A stretch of DNA of 37,554 bases. It comes from a virus. The notes under the pieces were generated by a model, which made no database searches, had not been told where the DNA came from, and was given only the letters and a program-made list of their open reading frames with translations. The stretch spans positions 1 to 37,554 of the IMG/VR virus record IMGVR_UViG_3300014819_000027; one strand, 5' to 3'. Positions 20,250 through 33,286 of this stretch are shown one piece after another; position 1 is the stretch's first letter, and the number at the start of each line of letters is the position of its first letter. Made by a program: the position numbers and the translations under genes.

Positions 20250-21088
20250 TATGTTCCCCATTCGTTTTTAAATAGTGGTACTTGTAGTCTGTCACTATAA
20301 CGCCAACCTCGTTTCATAGCTGCTAATGCCACATTCTTTGCGTTTAAATTATATACACTATCAACACCACCGACAGGCATAATATAAGTGGGACCAACAA
20401 ATCCTGCGTTTCTGAATTCTCTGTCTGCTTTTTCGGCATCTCCAATATCTTCTTCAGTTGCTACTACAAATTTTAAATATGTATAGCCAACTTCTTGATA
20501 TTGACATACTATATCTGGATTGATTGCTTCATCCCACTTTTCACCACTGTTTGGTAACTTTGCACTTACACTAAATGTTACGTCACCATTTCTTTTTCTT
20601 GACCAATCTTTCAGATAATCATAAAATTCAGCAGATAACTTTTGCGTACCATTAGTTTCAAATGTAATATCGTGTAGATGATCCATAAAGTCATGGTTCA
20701 GTAAATCAGGATAGCTACGCTGCCATCCTAATAACGGTTCACCACCTGTGATAACCAAATGCTCACCTTGCCAATAACCTGTAGGCAATAAATCAAGAAT
20801 TTTAACAGCAATACTATCGGTATTGAGAACAGGACTAAGATTTTTAAACCTAGGATCCCAGCTAGCATAACTGTCACATCCAGTGCTAACCAACGGGAGG
20901 GTTTTGTAGTCGGTGTATTTTTCCGCCTGTATTTCGTTACGCTCATTGCTAGTTTGTCCTCGTGGCATACCAAACCCACCACATGTAAAATTACATCCAA
21001 ATACACGAAGGAAGACACTAGGAACTCCCATATATCTTCCTTCCCCTTGTATTGAATAAAATAATTCACTTACTTTTAATTGCGACAT
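20249..21088 (-). CDS. queE: 7-carboxy-7-deazaguanine synthase (QueE, radical SAM), variant
   Basis: A 279-residue QueE that would convert 6-carboxytetrahydropterin to 7-carboxy-7-deazaguanine. LFYSIQGEGRYMGVPSVFLR opens the family. The cluster Cys residues are Cys32 and Cys36 (GCNFTC) and probably Cys71 in GCDSYASWD, so the usual CX3CX2C is stretched to CX3CX34C. ITGGEPLLGWQ is the SAM-binding GGEP motif, followed by FETNGTQ and TFSVSAKLPNSGE. Start 21088 has GAGGAAAT upstream; the longer frame lies within the oxidoreductase gene. It overlaps that gene by 13 bases. Part of the deazaguanine pathway with FolE, QueD and DpdA. Confidence 0.9.
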   Translation of the reverse strand: MSQLKVSELFYSIQGEGRYMGVPSVFLRVFGCNFTCGGFGMPRGQTSNERNEIQAEKYTDYKTLPLVSTGCDSYASWDPRFKNLSPVLNTDSIAVKILDLLPTGYWQGEHLVITGGEPLLGWQRSYPDLLNHDFMDHLHDITFETNGTQKLSAEFYDYLKDWSRKRNGDVTFSVSAKLPNSGEKWDEAINPDIVCQYQEVGYTYLKFVVATEEDIGDAEKADREFRNAGFVGPTYIMPVGGVDSVYNLNAKNVALAAMKRGWRYSDRLQVPLFKNEWGT

Positions 21089-22263
21089 ATTTCCTCTATT
21101 AATAATTTTGCTGTGTATGGAGCTAATGTCCATCCTAAATGACCATGACCTACATGATAGTATACATTTTCTTTATGTTTACTTCTAGTGTATACGGGCA
21201 TCATATTTGGGGTCATTGGGCGTAAACATGCCCAACTACTATACTCATCACAAACTACATTTGGAAAGTTTTTGTGAACCCAATTTAATAAAGGCTTGAT
21301 ACGGTCATTGCGTATATCATAATTTTCGCCATCAAACTCAGCAGTGCCTGCGATTCTTAATCTATTACCCAACAAACTTGTAACCACTTTTGATTCTTCA
21401 TCAAGTAAACTAGTTTTTGGTGCGCTATTATAACTAGTTTCGTTTTTAATTGGTATTGTTATACTGTATCCCTTTACTGGATAAACATTAAGTTTGTCCC
21501 CTATAGTCTTAGCAACCTTTGTAGCACCAATACCGTTAGCTATAATGACTTTATTATATTGGCGTAACTCGTTAATATGCTTTAATTTATAATTATATAC
21601 AAATCTTACACTATATTGGTCTACTAATAATTTACTAAGTTCTATACAAAACTTATGTATGTCACCAGTCCAATCATCTTCCGTCCATACTCCCCCTATT
21701 AAACCATCATAATATCTTAAAGTAGGTTCTAAATTAATTACCTCATTTTTATCCAATAACTTATATTGACAACCTTCTGATGTATACAATTCACTAGCGT
21801 CTTTAGCGGCATGGTAATATTTTAAATTTTTATATATATGTAAAATACCAGATTTACTTTGGTCAAAATTTAAGTTATGCTCTGACATAATGGTTTGATA
21901 TAGCTTTCTTGCTTCCAAACCCATGCGTATTGTTTTTGCTGTGTTTTTTGCGTACTCGTTTTTTGCTGTGTGATACAAAAACTTAGCAAGCCAAATCGCT
22001 TTATCAATATCTAAACTTGGTCTAATAAGCAAAGGGGCATCTTTTTTGAGCATCCATTTAATGCCTTTATAGACGTTAGCCCAAGTATTCCATACTTCGC
22101 TATTACTTACACTAACTTGTCCTCCATTTGCGTAACTACAACGCATAGCAGGATAGTTTTCTTGTTCAAATAAAGTTACATCAAAACCTTTTTTAGCAGC
22201 ATAGTAGGCAGCTGTAATACCTGCTATGCCTGCTCCTAATATTCCTATCGTATCTTTAGCCAT
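21076..22263 (-). CDS. FAD-dependent D-amino-acid dehydrogenase-like oxidoreductase
   Basis: A 395-residue DadA/glycine-oxidase-type flavoenzyme. The N-terminal GILGAGIAGITAAYYAAKKG is a classic dinucleotide-binding GxGxxG; YANGGQVSVSNSEVW and the C-terminal GHGHLGWTLAPYTAKLL match DadA. Length is near the family's usual 400-430. It oxidises an amine or amino acid C-N bond in known homologs. It sits between the MazG-like gene (eight-base overlap) and queE (13-base overlap), so it is expressed with deazaguanine synthesis. The substrate is unknown: free amino acid or a modified base side chain are both possible. Confidence 0.88.
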   Translation of the reverse strand: MAKDTIGILGAGIAGITAAYYAAKKGFDVTLFEQENYPAMRCSYANGGQVSVSNSEVWNTWANVYKGIKWMLKKDAPLLIRPSLDIDKAIWLAKFLYHTAKNEYAKNTAKTIRMGLEARKLYQTIMSEHNLNFDQSKSGILHIYKNLKYYHAAKDASELYTSEGCQYKLLDKNEVINLEPTLRYYDGLIGGVWTEDDWTGDIHKFCIELSKLLVDQYSVRFVYNYKLKHINELRQYNKVIIANGIGATKVAKTIGDKLNVYPVKGYSITIPIKNETSYNSAPKTSLLDEESKVVTSLLGNRLRIAGTAEFDGENYDIRNDRIKPLLNWVHKNFPNVVCDEYSSWACLRPMTPNMMPVYTRSKHKENVYYHVGHGHLGWTLAPYTAKLLIEEICRN

Positions 22264-23256: not shown

Positions 23257-23727
23257 TTAAACAAACTCATTGTCAGACCTACTTCCAACACGCATTGCCA
23301 TGTTAGCATCAGTCTCTCTTACTTCCACTTTACAACACCATACTCTTTCATCATACCCATAATCTTTTAACCAACAAGTATTAATGTATTCATATAACCA
23401 ATCAGCAATACCTTCACATCCTGTTCGTTCGACCATTGTAATTTTTGCTAATCCCAGTTTTCCTAATCTTAATAATTCATTTTTCTTAGGATCATCTTCG
23501 GCTACTAGAAGCGTATGATCAAACCATTCTTCCAATAATCCTTTTAAGGGTTTTAGACTACCAAAGTCTACTACCCAGTTTCTAGCATCAAGTGTATCAC
23601 TTTCAAATTCAAAATGAAAACTTAATGCGTATCCATGTATCAAGTTACAATGACTATCAGCACGCCATTGACGGTATGCTACTGGACCTATTTGTTTATA
23701 TGTTTTTGTACTAATAAATTTTGCCAC
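23257..23727 (-). CDS. queD: 6-carboxytetrahydropterin synthase-like (QueD)
   Basis: A 156-residue T-fold enzyme of the QueD/6-pyruvoyl-tetrahydropterin synthase family. The zinc region is ADSHCNLIHGYALSF: His26 and His31 are visible, but the third ligand of the usual HGH is Tyr33; Cys27 is a candidate catalytic Cys. VVDFGSLKPLK, FDHTLLVAEDDP (His71) and VEVRETDAN (Glu137 for pterin binding) complete the set. I recall this HGYALSF subtype from marine bacteria. It starts at GTG 23727 after GGAGG; no ATG fits. It would use the FolE product and supply QueE. Confidence 0.88.
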   Translation of the reverse strand: MAKFISTKTYKQIGPVAYRQWRADSHCNLIHGYALSFHFEFESDTLDARNWVVDFGSLKPLKGLLEEWFDHTLLVAEDDPKKNELLRLGKLGLAKITMVERTGCEGIADWLYEYINTCWLKDYGYDERVWCCKVEVRETDANMAMRVGSRSDNEFV

Positions 23728-23802
23728 CTCTTGCCTCCTTTAGCTGAGTAAGTTTGATGACATGCAGAATATTTAAAGTGGGATGAATGCCTTAGACCAC
23801 TG

Positions 23803-24423
23803 TTATTTTAAAGAATTTATTATTTTTTTTGTTAAAGTATATATTTGGTAATAATTTTCTACTTTAACACTTTTAGTATATGTTTTTGTAAAAAAATTCA
23901 AGTCCTCATAAAATAAATCTTCATTAAATGAATAATCAAAATTGTCACAAGAATCATTGTATTTTTTTACCATATTAACTGTAAATTTTAACAATCCATA
24001 CCTAATTGGAATAGCGTCTGGTTCTTTATTTGGATTCCAATCTTTTTTTAATATAGCTATATAAGCACTTATACATTGTTCAACTAAATTTCGTCTCCTT
24101 ATTCTAACTACATAAAAATTATTTGACTTAAACTTGTTAAAAACGTAATTTTTAAGGTACTGCCAATAATTTATAATATCATAGGCGTGTGCTTTTACTA
24201 TAAGATTTTTATTTTGAAACTGACTTGTGAATTCTTGTACTGTATAAATATCAGATTTAATTATTAGATTATCTATATATTCCTTAGTTGTGGGAAGGAT
24301 TACTTTTGGTTCGTTTAAAATAGTTATGCTGTCAGTATTTGGTGTCAATCTTTCATAATATTCCCATAATAACGCAGTAGATCCAGATCGCATAGTAGAT
24401 ATAATAGCAATAGGTAATTTCAT
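23803..24423 (-). CDS. PAPS-dependent sulfotransferase-like protein
   Basis: A 206-residue P-loop sulfotransferase-like protein. ISTMRSGSTALLWEYYERL at residues 8-26 is the 5'-phosphosulfate loop, and RIRRRNLVEQCISAYIA near residues 107-123 gives the Arg and Ser of the 3'-phosphate site. It lies 30 bases downstream of an adenylylsulfate kinase fusion that could make its donor PAPS. The upstream CATAAATATA resembles a late promoter. The acceptor is unknown: glycan, protein or base. Confidence 0.82.
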   Translation of the reverse strand: MKLPIAIISTMRSGSTALLWEYYERLTPNTDSITILNEPKVILPTTKEYIDNLIIKSDIYTVQEFTSQFQNKNLIVKAHAYDIINYWQYLKNYVFNKFKSNNFYVVRIRRRNLVEQCISAYIAILKKDWNPNKEPDAIPIRYGLLKFTVNMVKKYNDSCDNFDYSFNEDLFYEDLNFFTKTYTKSVKVENYYQIYTLTKKIINSLK

Positions 24424-24437
24424 TTTTTCTGTGTGTA

Positions 24438-24447
24438 TATATTTATG
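24438..24447 (-). promoter_or_regulatory. Candidate T4-type late promoter
   Basis: CATAAATATA on the minus strand, identical to the element before the second fibre gene at 2827-2836, lies 14 bases before the sulfotransferase ATG. It could give this gene extra late expression. Confidence 0.35.
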
Positions 24448-24453
24448 AAATTC

Positions 24454-25296
24454 CTATTTTAGACCCATTTGTTTTCGTATATTTGTAGCACTTATACTAG
24501 TAATTGATTCGTCAAATGTTTCTTCTCCACTTGTATATCCTACTCCTCGTCCCCAACCAATGTGTACAATATTTGGAACTAACATAATTTCATATTGACC
24601 TTGATACAATGGATCTAAATCACGTTTTATATAATTTTTAACTTCTTCAACACTAAACGGGTTACTATTTTGCCATCCTTGTACATCACGTATTTGTATT
24701 ATAACTTGTCCTGTCTTACTTAGTAAGCGTTCAAACAATGCACGGTGACCAAGATGCCATGGTTGCCAGCGACCTAGCATTTGTACTGTTTCTTTACGCC
24801 AATCAAAGATTGGTCTACGTTTTTTGTTAAGAATCATTTCACCAACATAAGGTACCCAACGTTCACAATTTTGTTCATTAATTCGAAAATCATAAATGTC
24901 AGGGGGTACAAATGCTTTGTTTGTATCCTCATACCGACCTTTATCAATGGTATCCATCCATATGGTCCAATCAGCTTTAAAATTATGTCTCATTTCGGGT
25001 AAAGGAGCAACAAAATCACAAATTACATATTCCCCATCACAACGAATTGCGAATTCTGCCATACGCAAACTTTGACGAATTCTGCCCTCTTTACTAAAGT
25101 CCCAATCATTAAATTTTTTACGTATATCATCTGCATTAAACCAATCTACTTTTACGTTAAGGATTGGATAAGGGCGATCCGAATTAATTTTTGATAAAGA
25201 CTTTTCTCCATTTATCTCTAAATATTTTTTTAAACGTTCTGCAAAATATGTTTTACCTGAACCTGGTAATCCCATTATTAATATTTTCTCTGTCAT
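24454..25296 (-). CDS. Adenylylsulfate kinase-like / nucleotidyltransferase fusion
   Basis: A 280-residue two-domain protein. Residues 1-160 are a P-loop kinase (GLPGSGKT at 9-16, then FNADDIRKKFNDWDFS, RMAEFA and DFVAPLPEMR) resembling CysC adenylylsulfate kinases. Residues 170-280 are an HxGH nucleotidyltransferase (LGRWQPWHLGHRALFERLL, HLGH at 181-184; SISATNIR near the end). Fusions like this are annotated in cyanophages. With the sulfotransferase next door, PAPS synthesis is plausible; NMN adenylyl transfer is an alternative for the second domain. It overlaps the upstream gene by an ATGA. Confidence 0.85.
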   Translation of the reverse strand: MTEKILIMGLPGSGKTYFAERLKKYLEINGEKSLSKINSDRPYPILNVKVDWFNADDIRKKFNDWDFSKEGRIRQSLRMAEFAIRCDGEYVICDFVAPLPEMRHNFKADWTIWMDTIDKGRYEDTNKAFVPPDIYDFRINEQNCERWVPYVGEMILNKKRRPIFDWRKETVQMLGRWQPWHLGHRALFERLLSKTGQVIIQIRDVQGWQNSNPFSVEEVKNYIKRDLDPLYQGQYEIMLVPNIVHIGWGRGVGYTSGEETFDESITSISATNIRKQMGLK

Positions 25297-25526
25297 TTTT
25301 TAAGTAACTCCCATACTCTTTTTTGCATCATTTCCTCTACCCACTCATCTTCACCTGCAAATTTAGGCGCTTTACTAAAATAATCATCCATTATCCACTT
25401 AAGCTTATATAAGTCTTTTTTAATTTCAAATTGAGTAAAACCATCATTGTACTTACTATTGGTTTCATACATAGCTTGAAAAATAATGTCTGTTGCTTCT
25501 TGCAATTCAGGTTTTTTATATCCCAT
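25293..25526 (-). CDS. Small hypothetical protein (77 aa)
   Basis: A 77-residue acidic helical protein beginning MGYKKPELQEATDIIFQAMY, with DLYKLKWIMDDYFSKAP and a C-terminal MMQKRVWELLKK. I start at ATG 25526 (GGGAA upstream) rather than at TTG 25556. It overlaps the zinc-ribbon-like gene by 11 bases and the kinase fusion by four. Function unknown. Confidence 0.72.
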   Translation of the reverse strand: MGYKKPELQEATDIIFQAMYETNSKYNDGFTQFEIKKDLYKLKWIMDDYFSKAPKFAGEDEWVEEMMQKRVWELLKK

Positions 25527-25683
25527 AATTATTCCCAGTACTATAAAATAGTACAACTGCTACAAATAAAATTATTAACCATAATGGATAAGGATTTGTT
25601 ATTAAAGGCCTATGATGTGGACATCTACCCTGATTATAATCACAATTAGTACTATACTCTTTTTTACAAATACTACAACTCAT
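25516..25683 (-). CDS. Cys4-type small membrane protein coupled to folE (55 aa)
   Basis: A 55-residue protein: four Cys and two His in the first 24 residues (MSCSICKKEY, then CDYNQGRCPHH), followed by a single transmembrane helix (WLIILFVAVVLFY). The CxxC...CX6C spacing suggests a zinc ribbon anchored in the inner membrane. Its ATG overlaps the folE TGA as ATGA, strong evidence for translation. Function unknown. Confidence 0.7.
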   Translation of the reverse strand: MSCSICKKEYSTNCDYNQGRCPHHRPLITNPYPLWLIILFVAVVLFYSTGNNYGI

Positions 25684-26366
25684 TTAGATGAACTCCTTGC
25701 AATACTGTAAAATTCATTACGCACAGCAACATCACTTTTAAATCCACCACCCAAACGACTGGTTACAGTGGAACTACCTGTATCTTCTACACCTCTGCTT
25801 TTTACACAGTAATGTTGTGCATCAATCATTACTGCTACATCTTCTGTATCAAGGATATATTGTAATGTATGAAAAATTTGTTCTGTTAAACGTTCTTGAA
25901 TTTGAGGGCGTTTACTAAAATACTCCACAATTCTGTTGATTTTGCTAAGACCCAATACTCTATCCTTAGGTACATATGCAACAGTAGCAAGACCGTCAAT
26001 AATAACACCATGATGTTCACAATTGCTCTGAACTGATACATTTCTTTCCACTACCATTTCATTATACTGCATTTTATTATTTACAGTTGTACATTTTGGA
26101 AAATTTTCTTCTTTTAATCCAAAATATATTTCATTTATGTACATTTTTGCCATTCTATTCGGTGTTTCTTTTAAACTATCATCATTTAAATCCATTCCAA
26201 CAGTTTTCCAAATTGTTGTAAATGCTTCTTCTAAGATATCTATTTTCTTTTTATTTTCTACTGCCAATAATTGTTCGTTTATTGGTGTTTCGACACCCAT
26301 TTTTATTAAATATTCTCTAACTTGTTTTCCTAGTACCGGACTACATTTTGTTTTATCAAAACTCAT
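25680..26366 (-). CDS. folE: GTP cyclohydrolase I (FolE)
   Basis: A 228-residue GTP cyclohydrolase I, which turns GTP into dihydroneopterin triphosphate, the first step of 7-deazaguanine synthesis. QSNCEHHGVIIDG (Cys116, His119), GLSKINRIVEYFSKRPQIQE, TEQI and HYCVKSRGVED (Cys187) supply zinc and substrate sites; all key residues are present. Length matches the family. AAGGAG precedes ATG 26366. It is followed by the Cys4 membrane protein with an ATGA overlap. A folate role is possible, but QueD, QueE and DpdA in the same block favour DNA modification. Confidence 0.95.
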   Translation of the reverse strand: MSFDKTKCSPVLGKQVREYLIKMGVETPINEQLLAVENKKKIDILEEAFTTIWKTVGMDLNDDSLKETPNRMAKMYINEIYFGLKEENFPKCTTVNNKMQYNEMVVERNVSVQSNCEHHGVIIDGLATVAYVPKDRVLGLSKINRIVEYFSKRPQIQERLTEQIFHTLQYILDTEDVAVMIDAQHYCVKSRGVEDTGSSTVTSRLGGGFKSDVAVRNEFYSIARSSSK

Positions 26367-26381
26367 TTTGTTTCTCCTTAC

Positions 26382-27221
26382 TCAAATTTGTTTATGATTT
26401 ATATATGTTGGTTTTGTCATATTCCAAACAAGACCATATTGATATTTTTTGTCAGTATTTTTTGAAATATCAGATTCATTTCTATATTTTCCTTTTAACT
26501 CACCTTCAAAAATAATTCTTTTTTTAGTTGGACGAGTTATTCTACCATATGCTACATTATAGTTTAACCTAATAAATTCTTCAATTTCATTTGGGAATAA
26601 AAATTTTTCTTGACCGTTTATTATACACCATTTTTTCCCTGTTACCGCAGACTTACCAAACATACCATTTCTTGATCCGTTCCTAGCCATTTGTTTTTTT
26701 GATCCTGAACGAAAGTTTATAGTAGATGTATTAATTATATTTTCTTTACCGTATAGCAACTCTAACCCTTCGAGTTCACAATCTTTAATAATAAAATGTT
26801 CACCTAATAAATAATTATAAATTGTAATTGTATTTTGTCTAGGATTTTTATAACTGTTTTTTTTATGTTTTTTAAGATTATTAGAAACCCAGTTGGTTGT
26901 TCTAATATTAGTTAGACCATATTTTTCTTTAAGTTCTATTAATAATTGTATCTCTAATGATAATGCTTCAGATTCGTTTAAATTGTCAGCAATTTTTAAA
27001 ATATATGGATTTAACCCTTTTGATTGTAACAAGCGAATGGTATTAAGTTTATGTGAATTTTTATATTTACGACTGGGTCTAGCTTCTTTTAAATGATCAT
27101 AAAGCCGATTTCCAGTCCCCTTTCCTATATAAAAAGGTTTATATAAAAAAGACATTTTAGTTGAACTGAAATTACCTATTTCTAAAGGGTTTAAATAAAC
27201 ATAGACATAATATTGTGACAT
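26382..27221 (-). CDS. GIY-YIG homing endonuclease with NUMOD3 motif
   Basis: A 279-residue free-standing endonuclease. The N-terminal YYVYVYLNP and KPFYIGKGTGNRLYDHL form a GIY-YIG variant with Arg in the helix; NESEALSLEIQLL gives the catalytic Glu. RNGSRNGMFGKSAVTGKKW is a NUMOD3 DNA-binding motif. Codon use is even more AT-rich than its neighbours. It sits between folE and a 63-residue gene, with a hairpin just upstream (27261-27281), which suggests later insertion. It probably spreads this locus to related phages. Confidence 0.88.
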   Translation of the reverse strand: MSQYYVYVYLNPLEIGNFSSTKMSFLYKPFYIGKGTGNRLYDHLKEARPSRKYKNSHKLNTIRLLQSKGLNPYILKIADNLNESEALSLEIQLLIELKEKYGLTNIRTTNWVSNNLKKHKKNSYKNPRQNTITIYNYLLGEHFIIKDCELEGLELLYGKENIINTSTINFRSGSKKQMARNGSRNGMFGKSAVTGKKWCIINGQEKFLFPNEIEEFIRLNYNVAYGRITRPTKKRIIFEGELKGKYRNESDISKNTDKKYQYGLVWNMTKPTYINHKQI

Positions 27222-27260
27222 ATAAGTTTCCTCACTCCTTATATTATAAATTTAAGAAAT

Positions 27261-27281
27261 CAGAATCAATCTTATTCTGAC
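27261..27281 (-). terminator. Weak hairpin, possible terminator
   Basis: TCAGAAT and ATTCTGA pair around a seven-base loop, followed on the minus strand by TTTCTT. It lies between the 63-residue gene and the GIY-YIG gene, in an 87-base gap. GATAAATAT just before it resembles a late promoter. Confidence 0.45.
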
Positions 27282-27308
27282 ACAATATTTATCTTATTTT
27301 AAATTTTT

Positions 27309-27500
27309 TTATTCTTTCTTGTTGTTTTTTATGGGCTTTTCTTCTACTACTTGGGTAGAACCTGACTTTACTAATGCTGCTGCTTCTTGTACTTGTGTAG
27401 CAATTACAGCCCAATTAATTTCGTATTGCTGTATTTCAACAGAACTTTCTACTATAGGGGGTTTAGTTAATACTTCTTTCTTTGTACGTTTAGTTGCCAT
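27309..27500 (-). CDS. Small hypothetical protein (63 aa)
   Basis: A 63-residue protein, basic at both ends (MATKRTKKEVLTKPP; KPIKNNKKE) with a central helix (YEINWAVIATQVQEAAALVK). GAGGAAATT precedes ATG 27500. It follows guaC by seven bases. Function unknown; nucleic-acid contact is possible from charge alone. Confidence 0.7.
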   Translation of the reverse strand: MATKRTKKEVLTKPPIVESSVEIQQYEINWAVIATQVQEAAALVKSGSTQVVEEKPIKNNKKE

Positions 27501-27507
27501 AATTTCC

Positions 27508-28587
27508 TCACTTTAAAAATACATCATTTATTTGTCTATTTACTCTGATAAATGTAGTGCATTTTGGAAGTTGTTTTAAATTTATAGCACCAACATACGT
27601 ACAAGCACTACGTAATCCACCTAATATATTCAATATAGTTTCTCTAACAGGACCACGATATGGTATTTCAACTGTACGCCCTTCACTACTACGGTATTCA
27701 GCAATACCACCGTGATGCTTATCCATAGCAGTACCCGAACTCATACCATAAAACATCACATATTCTTCTGTGTCTACGTATGGCTCTCCTGTTTTATTGT
27801 CTAATTCCTTGCTTAGATAGGATTTAAATATTACATCCCCGCCACCTTCATCATGCCCTGCAAACATACCACCGAGCATAACAAAGTCTGCTCCTGCACC
27901 AAATGCTTTTGCTATGTCACCAGGACAGGTACACCCTCCATCTGCGACAATATGAGCACCAAGCCCATGAGCAGCATCAGCGCACTCAATAATAGCACTA
28001 AGCTGAGGATACCCAACGCCAGTTTGAACACGAGTTGTGCAAACGCTCCCAGGACCGATGCCCACTTTAACAATATCTGCTCCACGTAAAATTAACTCCT
28101 GTGTCATGTCTGCGGTAACAACGTTACCCGCAATAATTGTATGGGTAGGAAAAGTTTTACGAACTTTTTCAACATAATCTGCAAATTGTTCACTGTACCC
28201 ATTAGCTACATCAATACAAATAAATTTAAATTCTGTATGATTATTTAAAATTTCAATTAATCTATGAAAATCTTTTTCACTAGTACCTGTGCTTACAGCA
28301 GCATTATTTCCGAAAGCAATTTGTCCTCTTTTTTTATATTCTTCTAATGTATAACTTTTAACTAAACATGTAAACATTAGATGCTCATTTAAAGCGTTTG
28401 CCATATTAAATGTGCCAACACCATCCATGTTTGCAGCCATGAGTGGTATACCATACCATTCATGTTTGCTGTGTTTGAACTTGTATGTTCTATTTAGGTT
28501 TACAATTTTACGACTTGCAAGTGTGCTACGTTTTGGACGAATTAATACATCCTTAAAGTCTAATTTAATTTCTTCTTCTATTCTCAT
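27508..28587 (-). CDS. guaC: GMP reductase (GuaC)
   Basis: A 359-residue enzyme of the IMPDH/GMPR family. [20 protein letters not shown] carries catalytic Cys183, and [20 protein letters not shown] with [12 protein letters not shown] is the GMP-reductase version of the phosphate loop, not the IMPDH one. There are no CBS domains. It deaminates GMP to IMP with NADPH. Its start shares a base with the upstream glycosyltransferase stop (TAATG). Near folE and the dpdA-like gene, it may recycle guanine or GMP released during base exchange or host DNA breakdown; this is inference. Confidence 0.92.
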
Positions 28588-29762: not shown

Positions 29763-29929
29763 TAATTAACCTTTTGTGCAGTAGAACAAATCCAGCCATC
29801 TGGAGTTTTGACAACTAGTCCCTTACAATTACTAATGTACTCATCTAAATCGTGTATACCTTGTATTACTAAAACAATACCAATACAAAAAAATACTATA
29901 ATAGAACCCCAAAATACTTTATCAATCAT
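29762..29929 (-). CDS. Small single-pass membrane protein (55 aa)
   Basis: A 55-residue protein: transmembrane helix at residues 5-23 (VFWGSIIVFFCIGIVLVIQ), then a short domain with GLVVKTPDGWICSTAQKVN and two Cys. ATGA overlap with the nucleotidyltransferase-cupin gene and TAATG with the glycosyltransferase show it is a translated unit. Function unknown; probably inner membrane with the Cys-containing part outside. Confidence 0.7.
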   Translation of the reverse strand: MIDKVFWGSIIVFFCIGIVLVIQGIHDLDEYISNCKGLVVKTPDGWICSTAQKVN

Positions 29930-30714
29930 GTTTGTGTTTTTCTTTCAATATCATCTTCAATACAATGTTCACCATATTGGATTTCAATAAGTTTTAATGG
30001 TTCTGATCCATTATTACATAATTGATGCCAACGTTCGTTTGGTACAAATAAATGTTCATGTTTATTGTAAACACCTAGTTGTTCTAAATCACTTTTTGAG
30101 TTTAATGTATTAACAGTTGCCTCACCTTGACTAACAAACCAAAACTCACTTCGTTTATTATGCTTCTGCATACTTAAACTTTTACCTGGTTCTACTGTTA
30201 ATTCTTTAAGTTTTACATTAGGACCATCTTCATGTAATACACGATAATAACCCCATTGTCTATTTGTTTTGGGAGCCTTCCATTCTTGTAATATCCAACT
30301 ACTAGAATTCATTTTGTTATCGCCACCGACATTAAACCAAAACTGTAGTCTGGGATCTACAATCTCCATTTCAGGAATATTTTCTTGTGTTCTATCCCCA
30401 CCGTTAGCGAATATAATACGCTCATTATTAAATGTATTTTCTAGGCAATATTTAATTGCATTTTTAGCAGAATTATCACTGTCATCAAAAGTTATATAAC
30501 CATCTACAACACGTAATTCACTAATAATTGCAGCACGTTCTGCCAATGGCATAAATGGTCTACCTTTTTTCCTAGCTAACCATTCATCACTATTTAGGCC
30601 AACAACTAATTGATGTCCTAATTCTTTTGCTGCTTTAAAGTAAGCAATATGACCACTATGAATAGGGTCAAATCCACCTGTAACTAATACAACTGTGTAT
30701 TGATTATTTTCCAT
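29926..30714 (-). CDS. Nucleotidyltransferase-cupin (mannose-6-P isomerase-like) fusion
   Basis: A 262-residue fusion. Residues 1-140 are a cytidylyltransferase-like domain (VTGGFDPIHSGHIAYFKAAK with the HxGH motif; GLNSDEWLARKKGRP; FANGGDR), close to the RfaE/HldE group. Residues 150-262 are a ManC-type cupin: RQWGYYRVLHEDGPNVKLKE, the GKSLSMQKHNKRSEFWFVSQ metal site, and IEIQYGEHCIEDDIER. Together they suggest nucleotide-sugar production. It overlaps the 30704-30907 gene by 11 bases. Similar fusions occur in cyanophages. Exact sugar unknown. Confidence 0.87.
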   Translation of the reverse strand: MENNQYTVVLVTGGFDPIHSGHIAYFKAAKELGHQLVVGLNSDEWLARKKGRPFMPLAERAAIISELRVVDGYITFDDSDNSAKNAIKYCLENTFNNERIIFANGGDRTQENIPEMEIVDPRLQFWFNVGGDNKMNSSSWILQEWKAPKTNRQWGYYRVLHEDGPNVKLKELTVEPGKSLSMQKHNKRSEFWFVSQGEATVNTLNSKSDLEQLGVYNKHEHLFVPNERWHQLCNNGSEPLKLIEIQYGEHCIEDDIERKTQT

Positions 30715-31750: not shown

Positions 31751-33286
31751 TTATTCCCCTAACATTTCAGATATTAATTCATCACTGTCAATACTATCTT
31801 CATCAACATATTGTTCATCACTTACTTCAAATAACTCATCAAACATTGTACTTGCATTTACTGTTTTCTTACCACTAAACCCTTGACTGCCTGACTTCAT
31901 TTGTGTCCAAAATCTATCGTACTTATCAAGTAATGCTAAACTTTTCTTTCTATCTTTTAAACTAAAAATGTCATCAACTAAACTACCGAAATCTTTTGTA
32001 TCAAATTGGCTTAACACCATACTTGGTTTAATACCCGAATCATACTGTCTATTGCCTTCTTGTACGGCTACAATATGTTGATAAACATTATGTGCCTGTA
32101 ACAACGTATAACTCAATGTATCCCAACTGGTTTTAGTTTCTTTTCCATGTGCTCCAATAAACCCTTGCCCTCTGTAACACAAATCACGAACCATCATTCT
32201 ATCAGTAACAGGGCTATCTGTAAACAACTTATGGATACCATCTTGCAATACAGCGTCCCGAAACTTGCGACTATCATTAGCATAGCTTTTCTTTTCAGCA
32301 GTTTTCTCCATGCTGTATGCCCATTTCTTGTTATGTTGAATATTAGTGTAGAAATAAGCAAGACCTTTAGCAGCACTAAAAAATGGGCTAGCACAGTCAA
32401 AAGTAATTTGTAATTTTGGATTATGATATTTGCGTATTGCTCTTTGAATATCACTAAACAATACAGCATATTCTAAAATGCTTGTACCCAAACAATGTAT
32501 AAGGTCGTGTTTGCCTTCTTCAAGCAGACCATCGTGAATAATATTCACCATACGCTTTAATGTAAGATGTATGTCAATTTTCGTCTGTCCACCAAAAGCC
32601 CAACCATTAAAATGGTTTTTAGGATAAACTTTTGGGTCACAGTACTTCTTCATTTCATCGTACCAATCATCAGATTGTTTATGATTCAACCCTTGTAGTA
32701 CGTTGAGAAATTTACATTCGCCATTACGATGTTGGATAAAATACTCATTATTGATATGTGTAGCCCTAACTGCTTCTTCAATTGTGGATATGCCATGTTT
32801 ATCTAACAAGTGTTTATTGCGTAGTGTTTGAGTTGGAACATCTAAACACATACCATAGTCCATGTATGTGTCCATCCAATTTAACACCTTTTGTCGTTGT
32901 TTCATAGCTTTGGGACAGTTTATATCTTTCCAATCAGCAGGCCATTGACCTTTCATAATCTGAAAGCCACCACTATCACCTAACAAGAAAGTACCCTTCT
33001 CACGTTTTCTTATAATGCTTTCAGCATTATCAACAACATTAGTATCAAGATTGGCATGACCAGCACTATATAATCCCCATTTGTATGTAAACAATCCTTG
33101 TTTACTGTTAAGAAAATTTAAACATTCAACATCATTATTAAAACCAATTGGTATACGTGCTGGGTCAAAATACTGTTCACCCTCACGTTGTTTGCCCAAT
33201 CCACTAATATAAAAACTACTAATAGCAGGTAAAAACAATGCCCATTCAGGATTATGTTTACTTGAAAGATTGTCTTGTTTCAGCAT
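31751..33286 (-). CDS. dpdA: DpdA-like 7-deazaguanine DNA transglycosylase (TGT family)
   Basis: A 511-residue protein of the tRNA-guanine transglycosylase superfamily. LLGDSGGFQIMKG (Asp104) is the base-binding motif; QITFDCASPFF (Asp297) matches the FDCVxPTR nucleophile of TGT; WAFGGQTK and HCLGTSILEYA fit the barrel. The zinc site is degenerate: Cys370 and His399 are visible but no CxCxxC. Phage and genomic-island DpdA proteins exchange guanine in DNA for 7-deazaguanines. In this window FolE, QueD, QueE and YhhQ can supply the base. It lies nine bases from 33296-33667. DNA rather than tRNA is inferred from family and context. Confidence 0.88.
   Translation of the reverse strand: MLKQDNLSSKHNPEWALFLPAISSFYISGLGKQREGEQYFDPARIPIGFNNDVECLNFLNSKQGLFTYKWGLYSAGHANLDTNVVDNAESIIRKREKGTFLLGDSGGFQIMKGQWPADWKDINCPKAMKQRQKVLNWMDTYMDYGMCLDVPTQTLRNKHLLDKHGISTIEEAVRATHINNEYFIQHRNGECKFLNVLQGLNHKQSDDWYDEMKKYCDPKVYPKNHFNGWAFGGQTKIDIHLTLKRMVNIIHDGLLEEGKHDLIHCLGTSILEYAVLFSDIQRAIRKYHNPKLQITFDCASPFFSAAKGLAYFYTNIQHNKKWAYSMEKTAEKKSYANDSRKFRDAVLQDGIHKLFTDSPVTDRMMVRDLCYRGQGFIGAHGKETKTSWDTLSYTLLQAHNVYQHIVAVQEGNRQYDSGIKPSMVLSQFDTKDFGSLVDDIFSLKDRKKSLALLDKYDRFWTQMKSGSQGFSGKKTVNASTMFDELFEVSDEQYVDEDSIDSDELISEMLGE

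Follow-up and report, generated by a model that had tools for sequence, protein, structure and literature searches.

The window, by which we mean the whole stretch of 37,554 nucleotides analyzed here (IMG/VR virus record IMGVR_UViG_3300014819_000027), carries a pair of minus-strand genes with folE (25680-26366; PF01227, 1.4e-59) on one side and queD (23257-23727; PF01242, 1.3e-15) on the other. One gene (24454-25296) encodes a 280-aa fusion of a kinase and a nucleotidyltransferase. The other (23803-24423), separated from it by exactly 30 bp, encodes an Stf0-like sulfotransferase of 206 aa. A conserved ORF of 87 aa (25293-25556) lies between folE and the fusion. The preliminary description had pictured a kinase-like/HLGH fusion with a sulfotransferase 30 bases on, set between folE and queD, and this layout was confirmed by the ORFs, the match to PF01583 and the HLGH motif. 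The same window also holds glycosyltransferases, an epimerase and a nucleotidyltransferase-cupin protein. At 29926-30714 on the minus strand a cytidylyltransferase-like domain is fused to a mannose-6-phosphate isomerase cupin, an arrangement kept in the sister phage L001.

Residues 1-160 of the fusion (24817..25296, minus strand) form an APS-kinase-like P-loop domain, as indicated by Pfam, profile and Foldseek comparisons. The domain passes the Pfam APS_kinase model PF01583 (27 bits, cut-off 21.1) and stays under the cut-off of TIGR00455 (17.2 bits, cut-off 138.7). Profile A5, made from 24 diverse kinase halves, ranks APS kinases first, with the human PAPSS1 kinase at 7.9e-16 and an archaeal APS kinase at 1.3e-15. 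All of the best PDB matches, in sequence and in fold, are APS kinases or PAPS synthetases, and the top 12 Foldseek matches of the AlphaFold model that includes this domain (mean pLDDT 88.9) are all APS kinases. Within the Walker A motif GLPGSGKT (residues 9-16; 25249..25272, minus strand), G9, G14 and K15 are invariant in 58 sequences (set A2). The segment DxxR...GFS...R is retained and aligns to the corresponding PAPSS1 segment with D56, R59, F67 and R72 invariant; we take R59, F67 and R72 to be the APS-site Arg and Phe residues of APS kinase. The DGDN motif is incomplete, as the equivalent of D89 (D56) is invariant and the equivalent of D87 is Asn (N54) in nearly all sequences. Mutation of both aspartates of this phosphotransferase motif (D87 and D89) in PAPSS1 leads to loss of activity (PMC11697783). 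N54 in place of the DGDN aspartate is a real deviation from APS kinase.

The remainder of the fusion, residues 161-280 (24457..24816, minus strand; profile A4), is an NMNAT-like HxGH nucleotidyltransferase domain. The nucleotidyltransferase profile matches NMNAT, pantetheine and FAD nucleotidyltransferases, and A4 finds NMNAT 2qjt at 3.9e-11 and MJ0541 at 2.5e-10. Three minus-strand motifs stand out: HLGH (residues 181-184, in GRWQPWHLGH; 24745..24756), with H181, G183 and H184 invariant in A2 and A4; the loop GR(D/G)VGY (residues 249-254; 24535..24552), with G249, R250, V252 and Y254 invariant in A4; and ISATxIR (residues 268-274; 24475..24495), with S269, T271 and R274 invariant in A4. R176, R203, R250 and R274 are invariant in phage and cellular sequences alike. 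The domain shares the GRxQPxHxGH, NPF and (S/A)(A/G)TxIR (SxTxIR) segments with NMNATs of the archaeal/NadM type and with NadR, but differs from them in being joined to an APS-kinase-like domain, in lacking about 25 residues that MJ0541 has between its PNI and GYxI segments, and in carrying a family-specific invariant Arg (R203) where the GSxQ segment of NMNAT has Gly. It scores 27.5 bits against the NMNAT equivalog TIGR01527 (cut-off 181.2) and falls far under every NMNAT equivalog cut-off. Judged from the sequence, its acceptor may reasonably be taken to be smaller than NMN.

The second domain was also considered as an ATP sulfurylase homologue and this was ruled out by profile search, which gave no PF01747 match and no Sat among the profile matches. 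The QxRN loop of Sat, which binds sulfate in ATP sulfurylase (PMC3779200), is absent, and GRWQPWHLGH is present instead. GR(D/G)VGY is reminiscent of the GRD loop in ATP sulfurylase (PMC3779200), a resemblance and not an established positional equivalence. Because the domain is NMNAT-like and not an ATP sulfurylase, a sulfurylase role is one that we infer.

More than 300 relatives of the fusion were found in IMG/VR, with both domains strongly conserved and near-invariant motifs in both halves, and we therefore regard the fusion as a real gene family and not a chance product. It matches the PHROG 10255 'kinase' at 5e-41. The domain pair occurs both fused and as adjacent genes, and the two domains are nearly always found together. 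On its single chain an APS-kinase-type P-loop domain comes first (N-terminal) and an HxGH nucleotidyltransferase second (C-terminal), the order of animal PAPSS1/2, which join APS kinase to ATP sulfurylase; the fusion also shares with bifunctional PAPS synthetases a genomic link to sulfotransferases. It differs from PAPSS1/2 in that its second domain is short (about 120 residues), belongs to another, non-Sat lineage and has no QxRN loop, and in the Asn at D87 of DGDN. In some phages the fusion has MazG and DNA-metabolism genes in its vicinity, and no sulfotransferase is annotated next to the copies of Stenotrophomonas and Clavibacter phages.

The sulfotransferase of the window taken alone is barely recognizable (PF13469, E=0.12). 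Single-sequence searches gave no PDB, PHROG or phage match, and there was no match to PF09037, against which its best relative (in L089) reached 19 bits with a cut-off of 22. Its only close relatives in INPHARED and IMG/VR are those of L001. A profile built from the window protein and two relatives in L001 picked up L060 1602-2252 at 2.8e-11, an ORF that overlaps the start of the fusion in that locus. An iterated profile search of the loci beside the fusion then yielded a 23-member Stf0-like family (A7), nearly all members of which adjoin the fusion; tandem sulfotransferase pairs lie directly upstream of it in L089-L102. RSGS, K..H, RxRRxNxxEQxxS and YED are all invariant in the three closest sequences. 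The presence of both PAPS-binding loops, as first read from the sequence, is borne out by the 23-member family: R12, G14 and S15 of the 5'-phosphosulfate-binding loop RSGST (residues 12-16; 24376..24390, minus strand) and R110, Q116 and S119 of the 3'-phosphate-binding motif RIRRRNLVEQCIS (residues 107-119; 24067..24105, minus strand) are invariant in it, as is YE. When the predicted model (pLDDT 72.5) was compared with PDB structures, Foldseek ranks 1-4 went to the four chains of Stf0 1tex, with probabilities of 0.99-1.00 and modest E-values of 1e-3 to 1e-2. Neither of the two observations named beforehand as refuting the sulfotransferase reading, a loss of PAPS-site residues or homology to some other P-loop family, was made: those residues are retained, and the closest fold is that of a sulfotransferase. 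The window protein is a divergent Stf0-type sulfotransferase which shares the predicted fold, the RSGST loop and the 3'-phosphate motif with the trehalose 2-sulfotransferase Stf0 (PF09037, 1tex), but is shorter, of very low identity to it and not recognized by PF09037.

Sulfotransferases cluster around the fusion. When loci were dereplicated at 90% identity (114 clusters), the nearest sulfotransferase was within 1 kb in 24 clusters and at 1-5 kb in 13 (p=2e-8); dereplication at 70% gave 7 versus 2 (p=5e-4). The neighbors belong to several families (PF13469, PF00685 and Stf0-like), and the clustering is seen in phages, SAR11 (L178, L175), SAR86 (L197, L230), Bradyrhizobium (L186), Asaia (L187) and SAR116 (L176). 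A whole-record scan found Sulfotransfer_3 in 18 of 42 fusion-bearing viral records. An obligate pairing of fusion and sulfotransferase was rejected, since in many fusion loci no sulfotransferase is within reach, nor is there one nearby in isolate phages.

A second neighbor is a DUF2061 protein of 65-80 aa, which lies at most 500 bp from the fusion in 37 loci (14 of the 114 clusters at 90% dereplication); elsewhere in the 2.8 Mb of loci it is absent. Eleven related loci contain the fusion, DUF2061 and a sulfotransferase together; the window itself has neither DUF2061 nor CysD/CysN. The closest plasmid relatives of this DUF2061 are on Mesorhizobium symbiosis plasmids, three of which were inspected and show the order nodC-nodI-ABC permease-sulfotransferase-DUF2061-cysD-cysN, the genes of Nod-factor sulfation. 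The fusion thus stands where CysD/CysN would in the order sulfotransferase-DUF2061-cysD-cysN. The likeness to the NodPQ/NodH operon (CysD-CysN/C with a sulfotransferase) lies in a sulfotransferase adjoining sulfate-activating genes and in the DUF2061 of the Mesorhizobium cassette, whereas the phage nucleotidyltransferase is no relative of CysD/CysN, in whose stead one small fusion stands. The DUF2061 genes of Bradyrhizobium, Halobellus and one phage are not in a context of the sulfation-operon kind, so the link to sulfation is strong for the Mesorhizobium relatives and not universal. The DUF2061 membrane protein is a candidate for a sulfate-related membrane component. At L212:6399-6614 a DUF2061 ORF sits between separate kinase and nucleotidyltransferase genes.

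The kinase/nucleotidyltransferase pair is also widespread in marine bacteria, where SAR11 and SAR86 carry the two domains as adjacent genes rather than fused. It is strongly matched in 155 of 198 Pelagibacterales genomes, and CysD in 10 of the 198, none of which has the pair (Fisher p=9e-8). The SAR86 order has it in 109 of 176 genomes, and it is absent from the one genome with CysD above the cut-off. Co-occurrence with CysD was therefore seen in none of the 11 CysD genomes of SAR11 and SAR86 together, a count to be read with the genomes often being incomplete and the CysD genomes possibly representing few clades, i.e. few evolutionary events. The presence of Sat in Pelagibacterales genomes is independent of that of the pair. 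P. ubique has neither cysDNCHIJ nor sat (PMC5069961), HTCC1062 has annotated sulfotransferases (PMC2217521), and Sulfotransfer_3 is found in 149 of 198 SAR11 genomes; a PAPS source is therefore missing, and the kinase/nucleotidyltransferase pair fits this gap. Genome-level co-occurrence with sulfotransferases was rejected as proof (SAR11, p=0.23; Alphaproteobacteria not discriminating). The usual SAR11 copy (e.g. L192:5992-6773) lies inside a betaine/one-carbon cluster and has no sulfotransferase beside it. Members of this cluster include a Rieske oxygenase, BHMT and FAD dehydrogenases, and some SAR11 loci have a methanethiol-oxidase-like gene near the pair.

The homologies, conserved sites, gene neighborhoods and the CysD exclusion pattern form the basis of our interpretation. 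The two genes of the window more probably than otherwise constitute a phage sulfation cassette, in which the fusion would supply PAPS to its sulfotransferase partner; this reading extends from the sequences to both catalytic activities and to the acceptor. The fusion is probably a non-canonical PAPS synthetase, a chemistry that we infer. The HxGH domain would most likely adenylylate sulfate (ATP + sulfate -> APS + PPi), the P-loop domain would phosphorylate the 3'-OH of APS to give PAPS, and the Stf0-like enzyme would move the sulfate from PAPS onto its target, for which a glycan or a different surface or small molecule, from either host or virion, is the likeliest candidate. Whether the HxGH domain itself makes APS appears to us about evenly balanced. 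Against the PAPS reading weigh the likeness of the HxGH domain to NMNAT and its missing QxRN loop, N54 in the kinase, the usual SAR11 copy with its betaine/one-carbon surroundings, the Stenotrophomonas and Clavibacter phage copies, the undiscriminating genome-level co-occurrence with sulfotransferases, and the possibly few events behind the CysD exclusion. The original suggestion that the two proteins could make and use PAPS is supported by the sulfotransferase clustering, the DUF2061 link to sulfation operons and the CysD exclusion. As to the proposed activating fusion, its APS-kinase-like half stands, and its HxGH half proves to be NMNAT-like and not an ATP sulfurylase homologue.

The kinase half might serve sulfation alone, turning APS supplied by the host (through CysDN, Sat or, from sulfite, AprBA) into PAPS, with the NMNAT-like domain in some other or regulatory role. 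Such a division would suit a protein with clear kinase homology and no ATP-sulfurylase motifs in its second domain, and the AprBA of P. ubique is able to form APS and could provide it (PMC5069961). It is unlikely, however, given that one domain is rarely seen without the other, whether fused or adjacent, and that catalytic motifs are invariant. Moreover, what the pair fails to co-occur with is CysD, a subunit of ATP sulfurylase, and hence it seems to replace sulfate activation as well as the kinase step. NAD salvage would make sense of the second domain, whose best match is NMNAT, and of the kinase + NMNAT arrangement, which is that of NadR with the order reversed; it would also suit the phage copies close to MazG and DNA-metabolism genes. 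The kinase would then make NMN from nicotinamide riboside, the NMNAT-like domain would make NAD, and the sulfotransferase would be unrelated cargo. Yet the kinase is APS-kinase-like and not ribosylnicotinamide-kinase-like, and the second domain departs from NMNAT in its score, its missing residues and the Arg in place of the GSxQ Gly. As NAD salvage also leaves the sulfotransferase and DUF2061 neighbors and the CysD exclusion unexplained, we hold it to be quite improbable.

The position between folE and queD had raised the idea, put forward as speculative, that a DNA base, a sugar or the phage surface is sulfated. The cassette is indeed placed inside a folE/queD/queE cluster in both the window and L001, and a 7-deazaguanine-type base made by these genes could be the acceptor. 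A 511-aa protein encoded at 31751-33286 (minus strand) has a GDSGGFQ motif resembling tRNA-guanine-transglycosylase/DpdA; it has no match in Pfam or PHROG, and the proteins related to it are hypothetical ones from PA5oct-like jumbo phages. Its presence alongside folE, queD, queE and a gene for a YhhQ-like transporter is suggestive of 7-deazaguanine modification of DNA. A DadA-like FAD amino-acid oxidase gene (21076-22263, minus strand) overlaps queE and mazG; this oxidase and the YhhQ-like transporter are both missing from the otherwise syntenic L001. A LEM-3-like GIY-YIG gene (26382-27221, minus strand) adjoins folE, within a stretch (26199-28587) that has no DNA match in L001. Relatives of the window queuosine genes are, however, missing near most loci with fusion and sulfotransferase, and in L047, which has the fusion with folE/queD/queE, a sulfotransferase was not found. 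The comparison with L001 also speaks against a DNA base. The fusions are 96% identical and the flanks of the sulfotransferase slot share 92-98% DNA identity, while the slot itself is a swapped island (23801..24460, no strand) with no DNA match to L001 and a GC content of 24%, versus 34% for the window. It measures 0.66 kb in the window and 1.56 kb in L001, where it holds two other sulfotransferases. A conserved activating enzyme with a swapped transferase is expected of a diversifying acceptor, e.g. a surface glycan. The link to folE/queD and DNA bases is thus not supported, and we regard sulfation of a DNA base as very improbable; a glycan or surface molecule is the more likely target.

A literature search found no phage PAPS/sulfotransferase cassette; most subscription journals were outside that search, and an earlier description is possible. 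The function of orphan sulfotransferases in phage genomes has been described as unclear (PMC10580990). On our reading of sulfation by fusion and sulfotransferase, an NMNAT-like sulfurylase with an APS kinase could represent a third kind of sulfate activation, present in most SAR11 and SAR86 and in aquatic phages by the hundreds, where it is often accompanied by exchangeable sulfotransferases acting on surface molecules in the course of infection, a proposal to which we give even weight for and against. If true, it would be a new route to PAPS. It would close a metabolic gap in SAR11 and SAR86, which rank among the most abundant bacterial lineages of the ocean and have sulfotransferases with no known PAPS source; both, believed to be without sulfate activation, would have it. 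The orphan sulfotransferases of phages would gain a partner that makes their donor, and with it a pathway that can be tested.
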